From Planctomycetota bacterium (GTDB lineage: Bacteria; Planctomycetota; Phycisphaerae; Phycisphaerales; Phycisphaeraceae): a stretch of 64,000 nt of DNA. The position numbers and the translations under genes were made by a program. Below are positions 47,350 through 51,906 of the stretch, piece by piece. Under the pieces are notes generated by a model that was given only the letters and a program-made list of their open reading frames with translations, was not told the origin of the DNA and made no database searches. Numbering within the stretch: the first letter of the stretch is position 1; the number at the start of each line of letters is the position of its first letter. Location: assembly GCA_016350165.1 (NCBI GenBank), contig CP066225.1, positions 3,348,001 through 3,412,000 on the forward strand, in the 5' to 3' direction.

Positions 47350-47407
47350 AGACTCGTTTGCGTTGCTTTAAGTGATGATAAAATAAGTGGTTAGCGTAAG
47401 ATTGGAT

Positions 47408-49000
47408 ATGACTCAGATGCAGAATAATCAGTCAGATCAAGGCGGAACATGTGGTGCAGGTTGTGGATGTGGGCATGGTGCAGGTGACGGTGCGAACGGG
47501 CAGGGTGATGGGCATAACCATCTGTCTGGTCATGAGTTACTGTTCCCAGATATGCCTTTTAAGGGCATGAAGAAACGCATCAAGGGGGCGGTGAAGGATG
47601 TGCAGCTACAGCAGTTCGTCAACGACGCGACACTCAAAAAAGATGTCGCGCGTACTGCAATGATGAACGATACGTTTGGACCCAACGTATTGGCAGTCAA
47701 GGAGTTAGCCGGATCAATCAAACAGCATACGCTAGATCATCTCGATCGGTATCTTGAGCAATTCATCGAAAACGCTGAAAAAACCGGCACCGTCGTGCAT
47801 CTCGCAAAAGATGCAGCACAAGCAAAAGAAATCGCGTTAACTATTGCCAAGCAAAAGGGTTCCAAACTCTGCGTCAAAAGTAAGAGCATGGTCACCGAGG
47901 AAGTCGAGCTCCTCGACGGCCTGGAATCGATCGGTGTCGAAACCATCGAAACCGACCTCGGTGAATTCATCCTGCAGCTCGATGGTGATGCGCCATCGCA
48001 CATTGTGACGCCTATGATTCACAAAAATCGTGTGTCAGTTGCAAAAGCATTCACACGCGAACTCGGTGCGGAATACACGGAAGACCCACAAGCTTTAACA
48101 ACGATCGCACGTGAGTACTTGCGTAAAAAGTTTGCAGAGGCAGATCTTGGGATGTCGGGCGGGAACTTCTTGGTTGCGGAAACAGGTGGAGTGGTGATTT
48201 GTACGAACGAGGGGAATGGGCGGTTGAGTACGTCGGTGGCGAAGACACATATCGCGATGGTGGGGATAGAAAAGTTGATTCCGAAACAGGAACATTTGGG
48301 TGTGATGTTGAAGGTGCTTGCTCGTAGTAGTACTGGGCAACCTTTAACTTGCTATACGCATATTATGACGGGGCCTAAGCGTGAGATAGAGCTTGATGGG
48401 CCTGAAGAAATGCACGTGATTCTGGTTGATAATGGCAGGACGAATGCGCTTGGGGCGGATACACGTGAAATGCTTCGATGTATTCGTTGTGGTGCGTGTT
48501 TGAATACTTGTCCTGTTTACAGAAAGGTTGGCGGGCATAGTTATGGCGCGGTGTATCCGGGGCCGATTGGATCGATATTGACACCGATGTTAAGAGGTAT
48601 GGATAACTACAAGGATATGCCGAATGCGAGCTCGCTTTGTGGGGCTTGTTATGACGCATGTCCGGTGCGGATTAATATTCCGAAGCAATTGATTCATCAT
48701 CGTCGTGTGATGAATGAACAGAAGATGAATCACTGGTTTGAACGATTTGTGATGAAGAGTTGGACGGTGGCTTATGGGAGTAAGCCGTTGTATCTGATGA
48801 GTAATAAGATGAATAAGGTGGTGAGCAGGTTGATGAGTGGTAAGAAAGATAAGGGGGGTAAGTATGTTGATCATGGCTGGTCTAAGAAGATGATTGGGCC
48901 CCTGAAGGGATGGACGGATCAAAAGGATTTGATGAGCCCGCCGAGCAAGAGTTTCAGGCAATGGTGGAATAGTGAGCACGATTCAAAAGGAGGTAAGTGA
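47408..49000 (+). CDS. lutB: L-lactate utilisation protein LutB with an unusual N-terminus
   Basis: A 530-residue iron-sulfur LutB. A LUD domain (about 60-300) is followed by ferredoxin-type motifs C358-x2-C361-x2-C364-x3-C368 and C411-x2-C414-x3-C418 and a C-terminal extension (DUF3390-like) to residue 530. The first 40 residues are odd: rich in Gly, His and Cys (GGTCGAGCGCGHGAG), unlike usual LutB starts, and might bind metal. The start at 47408 is chosen as an ATG; GTG 47387 is possible. Codon use switches abruptly from C-tending to strongly G-rich at about nt 48120-48150, inside the LUD domain. The stop overlaps the lutC start. Confidence 0.9.
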   Translation: MTQMQNNQSDQGGTCGAGCGCGHGAGDGANGQGDGHNHLSGHELLFPDMPFKGMKKRIKGAVKDVQLQQFVNDATLKKDVARTAMMNDTFGPNVLAVKELAGSIKQHTLDHLDRYLEQFIENAEKTGTVVHLAKDAAQAKEIALTIAKQKGSKLCVKSKSMVTEEVELLDGLESIGVETIETDLGEFILQLDGDAPSHIVTPMIHKNRVSVAKAFTRELGAEYTEDPQALTTIAREYLRKKFAEADLGMSGGNFLVAETGGVVICTNEGNGRLSTSVAKTHIAMVGIEKLIPKQEHLGVMLKVLARSSTGQPLTCYTHIMTGPKREIELDGPEEMHVILVDNGRTNALGADTREMLRCIRCGACLNTCPVYRKVGGHSYGAVYPGPIGSILTPMLRGMDNYKDMPNASSLCGACYDACPVRINIPKQLIHHRRVMNEQKMNHWFERFVMKSWTVAYGSKPLYLMSNKMNKVVSRLMSGKKDKGGKYVDHGWSKKMIGPLKGWTDQKDLMSPPSKSFRQWWNSEHDSKGGK

Positions 49001-50301: not shown

Positions 50302-51906
50302 ATGACTGAAGCTGAGAAAATTGTAGCGACGTATGTGGTGAGGTGTCGTGCTGCTGAGATTGAAGAGCAGGCGATGGGTATTGCGCTGGAGCAGACGGTT
50401 GAAGTACCGATGGGGTTGGTGAAGAAAGAAGCGTGGGTGAGTGAGCATGTGGTGGGTGAGGTGAGACGGGTTAGAGAAGTGGGTGAGTTGGGTGAAGAGA
50501 AGTTATTTGAGGTTGAGATTGGGTATGCGAGTTGGTTGGCGAATGGACAGTTGCCACAGCTACTTAATTTGCTGTATGGGAACATCTCAATCCAGAATAA
50601 TATTCGGTTGGTGGATGTGGTATTTGGTGAAGGTTTTTTGGGTAAGTTTAAAGGCTCTAATCATGGGATAGATGGAGTGAGAAGAAAATTGGGTGTGTTG
50701 GGTCGCCCACTTTTGGCGACGGCAATTAAACCTCGGGGTGTGGGTGATGAAAGGTATGCGGAGATAGCGAGGGGGTTTGCGATAGGGGGAGGGGATATTG
50801 TGAAGGATGACCATAATCTGGTGGACGATTCGGTGGAGGCGTTTGAGGAGAGGGTGCGGTTGTGTCATGAAGCGGTGATGGATGTGAATGTGAGGACTGG
50901 GCGAAATTGCCTATATTTCCCGAATGTTTGCGCGAAGTATGGTGAGTTGGATCGGTATCTGGAGGTGGTGAAAAGGATTGGGATCAGTGGGGTTTTGATT
51001 TCGCCGATGCTGGTGGGGTTGGATGCGGTGAGATATGTTGCAGAGAAGTATGGTGTGGTGGTGATGTCGCATCCGACGCATGCGGGTACGTTTTTTCATG
51101 ATCGTGAGCATGGGATTGAGCCAGGGGTTTTACTGGGGTCTATCTATCGATTAGCTGGTGTAGATATTACGGTGTATCCTAATTATGGCGGACGGTTTGG
51201 TTTTACAAAGGAAGAGTGTTTAGAGATAGCTGAGCGGATGAAGTGTGAGATGGGCGGATTGAAGGCTGGGTTTGGGGCACCGGCTGGTGGGATGAAGTTA
51301 GAGAATATGGAAGAGATGATGAAGGTGTATGGGGAAGATGTTGTTTGTCTAGTAGGTGGCGGATTACTTTCTTATGGAGAGGGTGTTGAGGAGGGGACGA
51401 GGGTGTTTAAGCAGGCAATTTGCGATGTTTTTGAAGGGGAAGAGGTTGAGCCGAAGCGGGAGATGATGGGCGCTTGTGAGATTGGTGGTGTGCGTGATGG
51501 AGAGATGGTGGAGGTTTTGCGGTGTGAGGATTGGTACTGGTCTGGGCGGGAAGTGAGTGAGTATAAAGCGGCGGGTGGGGATCTTCCTTTTGAGAAGGTT
51601 GCGCGGCAGGAGTTGATCGGTAAGTTTGGTGAGAAGACGCAGTTTGATTTGCGGTACTTTGAGATTGGGCTGGGTGGGTATTCGAGTGAAGAGAAGCATG
51701 TTCATGAGCATGTGATTATTGTGGTGAGAGGGAAGGGGAGATTGCGATTGGATGGCGGTGAGAAGGTTGAGGAGTTGGGGGTGATGGATGTTGCGTATGT
51801 TGAGCCGGGACGGGTACATCAGTTAGTTTGCGATGAGGAGGAAGGGGAGCCGTTTGGATTTTTTTGCATTGTTGATCATGAGAGAGATCGGCCGGTTAAG
51901 CCTTGA
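50302..51906 (+). CDS. RuBisCO-like protein (form IV) fused to a cupin
   Basis: A 534-residue fusion. Residues about 1-425 form a RuBisCO large-subunit fold: TAIKPRGVG (K143, like K175), GGGDIVKDDHNL (K168, D169, D170, with H171 in place of the usual E204), VMSHPTHAGTFF (H257, H260), YPNYGGRF and GGMKLENM (K332, like K334). The E204 change and overall form place it in the RuBisCO-like, not carboxylase, group; enolase, isomerase or decarboxylase roles on sugar or thio-sugar phosphates are known there. Residues 446-522 are a cupin with HVHEH (H466, H468, H470) and PGRVHQL (H506), a metal-binding set. I know no characterised fusion of this kind. No methionine-salvage genes adjoin it. G-rich codons throughout. 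Confidence 0.87.
   Translation: MTEAEKIVATYVVRCRAAEIEEQAMGIALEQTVEVPMGLVKKEAWVSEHVVGEVRRVREVGELGEEKLFEVEIGYASWLANGQLPQLLNLLYGNISIQNNIRLVDVVFGEGFLGKFKGSNHGIDGVRRKLGVLGRPLLATAIKPRGVGDERYAEIARGFAIGGGDIVKDDHNLVDDSVEAFEERVRLCHEAVMDVNVRTGRNCLYFPNVCAKYGELDRYLEVVKRIGISGVLISPMLVGLDAVRYVAEKYGVVVMSHPTHAGTFFHDREHGIEPGVLLGSIYRLAGVDITVYPNYGGRFGFTKEECLEIAERMKCEMGGLKAGFGAPAGGMKLENMEEMMKVYGEDVVCLVGGGLLSYGEGVEEGTRVFKQAICDVFEGEEVEPKREMMGACEIGGVRDGEMVEVLRCEDWYWSGREVSEYKAAGGDLPFEKVARQELIGKFGEKTQFDLRYFEIGLGGYSSEEKHVHEHVIIVVRGKGRLRLDGGEKVEELGVMDVAYVEPGRVHQLVCDEEEGEPFGFFCIVDHERDRPVKP

Follow-up and report, generated by a model that had tools for sequence, protein, structure and literature searches.

In R. rubrum, the Deep-Ykr RuBisCO-like protein (RLP) Rru_A1998 is described as converting 5-methylthioribulose-1-phosphate to 1-methylthioxylulose-5-phosphate, from which the cupin Rru_A2000 forms methanethiol and 1-deoxyxylulose-5-phosphate (DXP) (PMC4958253). 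The same paper places both genes in a similar organization in R. palustris, Meiothermus, Nitrococcus, and Halorhodospira; together with R. rubrum, these are the organisms named there for the methylthioadenosine (MTA)-isoprenoid shunt. For R. palustris, the same roles are reported to be supported by metabolite data and by knock-outs of rlp1 (RPA2169) and the cupin gene (RPA2170); that paper names glutathione, in its introduction, as the thiol used by the R. rubrum cupin (PMC5893883).

Both activities are already known from separate proteins. The window, a 64,000-nucleotide stretch of DNA from a Planctomycetota bacterium, contains a gene in which an RLP domain and a cupin domain share one open frame (Table 1). 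Searches of an open-licence literature library found no description of such a fusion. The encoded protein probably combines the RLP isomerase and the cupin methylsulfurylase of the MTA-isoprenoid shunt, both being predicted activities.

The fused gene and its distribution

The frame begins with ATG and encodes two domains recognized by Pfam. RuBisCO_large spans residues 122-383 (91 bits against a cut-off of 30.1), and Cupin_2 spans residues 453-514 and passes narrowly (27.9 bits against 27.2). Two ordered domains were also found in an AlphaFold2 model built from a 10-row input alignment (mean pLDDT 85.6), with residues 382-403 between them having a pLDDT below 50. A profile search found no second RuBisCO_large match in the 5.23-Mb genome, the assembly of which is a single contig. 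The amino-acid make-up of the window RLP departs from the rest of the tree alignment, and by eye it is rich in Gly, Glu, and Val.

Table 1. Coordinates of the fused gene and its features in the window.
Feature	Position	Strand	Basis
RLP-cupin fusion, whole gene	50302..51906	+	open frame, 534 aa plus stop; 12 further fused homologs
RuBisCO-like domain, residues 5-383, DeepYkr-type RLP, predicted 5-methylthioribulose-1-P 1,3-isomerase	50314..51450	+	phmmer, tree, model vs 3qfw
K168-D-D-H171, counterpart of RuBisCO K201-D202-D203-E204	50803..50814	+	alignment
N294-YGGRF299, in place of catalytic loop 6; R298 at K334 position	51181..51198	+	alignment
Interdomain linker, about residues 384-403	51451..51510	+	low pLDDT in model
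Linker motif G390-A-C392-E393	51469..51480	+	conserved among 13 fused proteins
Cupin domain, about residues 404-534, predicted 1-methylthioxylulose-5-P methylsulfurylase	51511..51903	+	phmmer to 3ibm, 3kgz, 3jzv
E464-x-H466-x-H468-x-H470, putative metal ligands	51691..51711	+	invariant in 22/22 cupins incl. Rru_A2000
H506-Q507, second cupin motif	51817..51822	+	invariant in 22/22 cupins

The fused chain is present in 13 genomes including the window's own, one copy being a 394-aa fragment at a contig end. The mean pairwise identity of these proteins is 48%, and two of them (L020 and L021) are 97% identical. A search for related loci returned seven, of which four hold one-frame fusions, in metagenome-assembled genomes (MAGs) of KSB1 (L002), Planctomycetaceae (L003 and L005), and Sumerlaeaceae (L004), and three hold adjacent separate RLP and cupin genes, in Meiothermus (L008, and L006, where the cupin was recovered only in part) and in a Gemmatimonadetes MAG (L007). 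The occurrence of the domains as separate adjacent genes in other bacteria would be compatible with a sequencing or assembly error that joined two genes in the window; however, the same in-frame fusion in 13 genomes of different assemblies, 12 of them with the linker cysteine, leaves the probability of such an artefact negligible. The gene fusion is genuine, with both domains in one open frame. An earlier note, made from the window's DNA alone, had described a form IV-like RLP and a metal-type cupin in one chain, and Pfam, the tree, and the homologs bear this out. The note had also named a sequencing error and a lack of two-domain homologs as threats to its reading; the same two-domain chain was found in 12 other genomes.

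Within the phylum, 79 of 392 genomes had some match at E 0.001. Seven carry the one-frame fusion (G000, G373, G216, G277, G231, G321, and G283; that of G277 is a contig-end fragment), and 20 of the 27 same-phylum genomes with a clade RLP have no cupin in the examined flank of 1.5 kb or less, this flank being short in L024 and L025, where no more than 180 bp separate the RLP gene from the end of the contig. Because these 20 RLPs are unfused and have no cupin in the flank, functions may differ within the clade. In the window's own family, 4 of 51 genomes had a match at E 1e-15, all spanning both domains (G000, G420, G425, and G231), and the sole other genome of the same genus had no match to the fusion gene, which indicates that the gene is dispensable. 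Fused RLPs stand mostly together in the tree, with three label changes needed and a patchy distribution; a single origin of the fusion would be compatible with this tree, as would several. Several of the fusion hosts are MAGs and may include misplaced contigs.

On a plasmid of Terrarubrum flagellatum (L061:4827-7374), the genes for RLP, cupin, and cysE (serine O-acetyltransferase) are consecutive. This row hints at an O-acetylserine product as the destination of methanethiol or sulfur in that organism.

Relatives and active sites of the two domains

The best PDB sequence match of the RLP domain is 3qfw, a Rubisco-like protein of R. palustris (phmmer, E 4e-73 over residues 5-376), which is also the first Foldseek match of the model. 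Structural superposition of the model on 3qfw gave Z 46.4 and rmsd 1.6 over 347 aligned residues with 38% identity; the two structural comparisons put the identity at 35-38%. The structural alignment rows span residues 1-378 only, and the identity of the cupin rests on sequence. In a maximum-likelihood tree (39 rows), one group of 31 rows with support 100/99 unites the window RLP, its relatives in fused, paired, and solo form, 3qfw, and two plasmid RLPs. MtnW is the neighbouring branch, and Photo, OiaX, and form I are also separate; the reference rows are named by their annotation, Photo is a label given here to L067, and the Rru_A1998 sequence is absent from the rows. The tree with known forms, which the earlier note had proposed as a check, thus sets the RLP domain beside 3qfw and apart from all four of these. 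We infer that 3qfw is R. palustris RLP1, because R. palustris is reported to have two RLPs (PMC5893883) and 2qyg is titled rlp2.

The window RLP and 3qfw have an active-site pattern of K143, K168, D170, H171, H257, and R298 in common. Positions were matched to RuBisCO residues K175, K177, K201, D203, E204, R295, K334, and S379-G381. On this numbering, the earlier note had correctly equated K143 with K175, K168 with K201, and D170 with D203, and had correctly placed H171 at the E204 position. Its choice of K332 as the counterpart of K334 was wrong: the residues just before K332 are PAGGM (327-331), which correspond to S379-G381, and the loop-6 residue is R298. The His at the E204 position is a signature of the whole clade including 3qfw and no peculiarity of the window protein, since 31 of the 33 clade members have KDDH (L066 has KEDH, and L016 has neither) and all 8 sequences outside have KDDE. 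GGRF occurs in 33/33 members and in 0/8 outside (41 sequences, the 39 tree rows plus L081 and L082).

Several identities were rejected for this domain. Compared with form I of Nitrobacter, R145, H171, P258, and R298 replace K177, E204, R295, and K334, which does not fit RuBisCO forms I-III. OiaX (3-oxo-isoapionate-4-P decarboxylase) forms a separate branch in the tree, and the chain scored 67.5 bits against its NCBIfam model, far below the cut-off of 700. The substrates that the earlier note had suggested, DK-MTP-1P and 3-oxo-isoapionate phosphates, found no support, the domain lying outside MtnW and OiaX in the tree and far below the NCBIfam cut-offs.

By phmmer, the cupin domain matched 3ibm (E 5e-26), 3kgz (2e-16), and 3jzv (4e-16) much more strongly than TM1459 (3e-5); 3jzv is the entry named uncharacterized protein Rru_A2000. 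E464, H466, H468, H470, D496, H506, Q507, C522, R528, D529, and P531 are invariant in all 22 aligned cupins (10 fused, 4 paired, 5 solo, and 3 PDB, with TM1459 and later-fetched solo cupins left out). Among these residues are the four putative His ligands, H466, H468, H470, and H506, that the earlier note had picked out. A GFxCxVxxxRDxP tail is common to the window cupin and the Rru_A2000-type cupins. No Pfam ARD match was found in the fusion protein up to E 0.1, and Rru_A2000-type cupins were matched instead, so that an identity as acireductone dioxygenase (MtnD) was rejected.

A tblastn search for cupin relatives in plasmids and phages returned one record each. No RLP was found beside the Thiodictyon cupin from this search (L091) among the 14 features shown. 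The other record, labelled Bacteriophage sp., contains a 34% relative of the cupin (MT835914.1:13910-14290) and is possibly bacterial DNA in a phage record. A 747-aa frame (L057) that looked like another cupin fusion was judged by eye to be spurious and GC-rich.

Pathway genes and genome context

Profile searches of the window's own genome found genes expected for the MTA-isoprenoid shunt, namely MTAP (mtnP; 286.5 bits, cut-off 274.85), mtnA (422 bits, cut-off 279), and O-acetylhomoserine sulfhydrylase (677.7 bits, cut-off 495.1). The genome also contains dxs (567.4 bits joined, cut-off 465.95), and the shunt would therefore serve for salvage and not be the sole source of DXP. Neither an acireductone dioxygenase (ARD) match nor an MtnB match above cut-off was found in this genome. 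Two class II aldolase-like places score below the MtnB cut-off. One of them (L080) is above threshold for an AraD-type subfamily model, and the scanned part of the other (L079) is above threshold for none; these places leave room for an Ald2-type route.

Among sampled same-phylum genomes, mtnA was found in 27 of 27 with a clade RLP and in 337 of 392 overall (Fisher p 0.02, relatedness ignored). This co-occurrence is weak support for the pathway, because mtnA is common in the phylum. Across the 91 loci examined, neither mtnA nor mtnP lies beside the fusion; mtnA was seen only at its own loci, in two regions taken around it, and at L065 and L066. The last two are plasmid loci with clade RLPs. 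In Ensifer sp. PDNC004 (L065:1680-7104), a same-strand run consists of mtnK, mtnA, two transketolase-type halves, and then the RLP; in Ponticoccus alexandrii (L066:1-5957), the run comprises mtnA, a molybdopterin oxidoreductase, a thiamine-diphosphate enzyme, a transketolase C-terminal half, and the RLP. Both runs support 5-methylthioribulose-1-phosphate as the substrate of the clade RLP.

Clustering of 365 predicted proteins from 28 loci revealed no shared fusion neighbour that points to a pathway, in agreement with the earlier note, which had seen none among the genes around the fusion. One cluster, the ubiquitous ABC-transporter ATPase family, recurs at the fusion loci L002, L004, and L044 and also at L050, at a distance of over 4 kb; another, at L007, L045, and L046, consists of UvrD-type helicases (L007 and L045 scanned). 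Upstream in the window (47387-49000), a LutB-family protein has an unusual Cys/His/Gly-rich N-terminal stretch (GTCGAGCGCGHGAGDGANGQGDGHNHLSGH).

Two further observations concern solo RLPs. The plasmid runs L065 and L066 contain no cupin in the stretch shown, where transketolase cleavage is possibly another fate of the RLP product. In L052-L055, solo clade RLPs of one family (f22) lie beside two related genes, GAPDH by Pfam in L053; these genomes showed no cupin match in the phylum-wide search and may use another substrate such as 5-deoxyribulose-1-P.

Predicted function and comparison with known systems

Homology to Rru_A2000 and to the R. palustris RLP, together with the unlinked mtnA and mtnP genes, indicates the MTA-isoprenoid shunt as the pathway. 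MtnP and MtnA would make 5-methylthioribulose-1-phosphate from methylthioadenosine, and the RLP domain would isomerize it to 1-methylthioxylulose-5-phosphate by a RuBisCO-type enolization at K168/D170/H171. The tethered cupin, together with a thiol, would then remove the methylthio group to release 1-deoxyxylulose-5-phosphate and methanethiol. The former would feed isoprenoids, and O-acetylhomoserine sulfhydrylase could return the latter to methionine. The earlier note's idea that the cupin works on the product of the RLP seems right on these grounds, and any channelling between the two sites is putative.

A different assignment would make the RLP a DK-MTP-1P enolase (MtnW) and the cupin acireductone dioxygenase-like, with the fusion serving universal methionine salvage. 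MtnD is also a cupin, MtnW is the nearest branch of the tree, the MtnW structures 2oek and 2zvi (Z 45.9 each) are tied with 3qfw, and MtnW models are the top-scoring NCBIfam families for the chain. The scores, however, remain under the cut-offs (TIGR03332, 167.9 bits against 513.6; NF007095, 218.9 against 409), and the RLP lies outside the MtnW branch, for which reasons MtnW identity was rejected. The RLP has KDDH and GGRF where MtnW has KDDE and YGSV, the cupin matches Rru_A2000-type cupins with no ARD match listed, and the genome has no ARD and no MtnB over cut-off, so that this assignment appears very improbable. Equally improbable is the alternative, raised by the earlier note, in which the cupin would serve as a product-binding sensor or regulatory domain governing the RLP. 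It can draw on a weak AraC_binding match under the Pfam cut-off, but the conserved signature of a characterized enzyme family is invariant in the cupin, and the separate R. palustris cupin is reported to act as an enzyme (PMC5893883).

It is somewhat less improbable, although still doubtful, that the RLP acts on a related phosphate, for example 5-deoxyribulose-1-P from 5'-deoxyadenosine, or is promiscuous, and that the cupin has a different or accessory role. For an archaeon, the processing of 5'-deoxyadenosine by MtnP- and MtnA-like enzymes has been proposed (PMC6079011), and 1,3-isomerization of 5-deoxyribulose-1-P would, by inferred chemistry, yield DXP directly. Moreover, 18 of 20 same-phylum solo-RLP genomes had no cupin match at E 1e-3, the exceptions being G058 (E 4e-23) and G037 (E 8.5e-6), with at most three candidate places scored per genome. 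Nevertheless, the cupins of the fused and paired forms show strict conservation and belong to the Rru_A2000 type, and without a methylthio leaving group this is difficult to account for.

The fused proteins have a further feature in the linker, which is otherwise unconserved: among the 13, A391 is present in 11, C392 in 12, and E393 in all, the fragment L014 being the only one without the Cys. Unfused RLPs showed no [AS]CE within their last 50 residues, nor did separate cupins in the stretch examined before them; this Cys-Glu motif is new and was seen in fused proteins only. No match to glutathione synthetase (PF02955; control matched in 9/14) or BshC (control matched in 3/14) was found in the window's own genome, which may have other thiols or synthetases. 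A tentative and rather unlikely idea is that C392/E393 supplies the thiol from within the chain, swinging to the cupin site, where it would attack the methylthio group or take it over as a transient Cys-S-S-CH3. The linker thiol would then stand in for free glutathione in bacteria without glutathione or bacillithiol, and separate cupins of the same phylum would achieve the same through a C-terminal CxxC tail. A structural or regulatory role would fit the motif as well.

A CxxC tail (such as CEIC) ends 6 of 9 separate same-phylum cupins found at E 1e-20 or better (L039/L056, L049, L057, L059, L060, and L083) and is missing from L058, L084, and L085. Neither the fused proteins nor the PDB homologs, in their aligned parts, have this tail.

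If the predicted activities hold, the fusion physically links two steps that are elsewhere connected by gene organization, proteomics, and knock-outs. The MTA-isoprenoid shunt would extend to KSB1, Sumerlaeaceae, and Planctomycetaceae MAGs and to the window's own family, and the fusion suggests a source of methanethiol in these groups. The linker cysteine makes the identity of the thiol driving the cupin step addressable by point mutation.

In comparison with Rru_A1998 and RLP1, the window RLP groups with 3qfw and has the same KDDH, NxGGRF, HP, and PAGG signature; it differs in forming one covalent chain with its partner. Over the cupin domain, homology to Rru_A2000 and RPA2170 includes every putative metal ligand as well as the RDxP tail, whereas the window cupin is C-terminal in a fusion and preceded by a linker with a conserved Cys-Glu. 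Glutathione is given as the thiol for Rru_A2000, while the window's host genome has no glutathione synthetase match. MtnW (2oek, 2zvi) shares the RLP fold but has KDDE and no GGRF on its separate branch. The Tetrahymena MtnBD fusion (PMC3698126), mentioned in PMC5893883 and PMC6302742, is a precedent for fused methionine-salvage steps; it joins other enzymes, of the universal pathway, whereas the fusion in the window would join two steps of the MTA-isoprenoid shunt.
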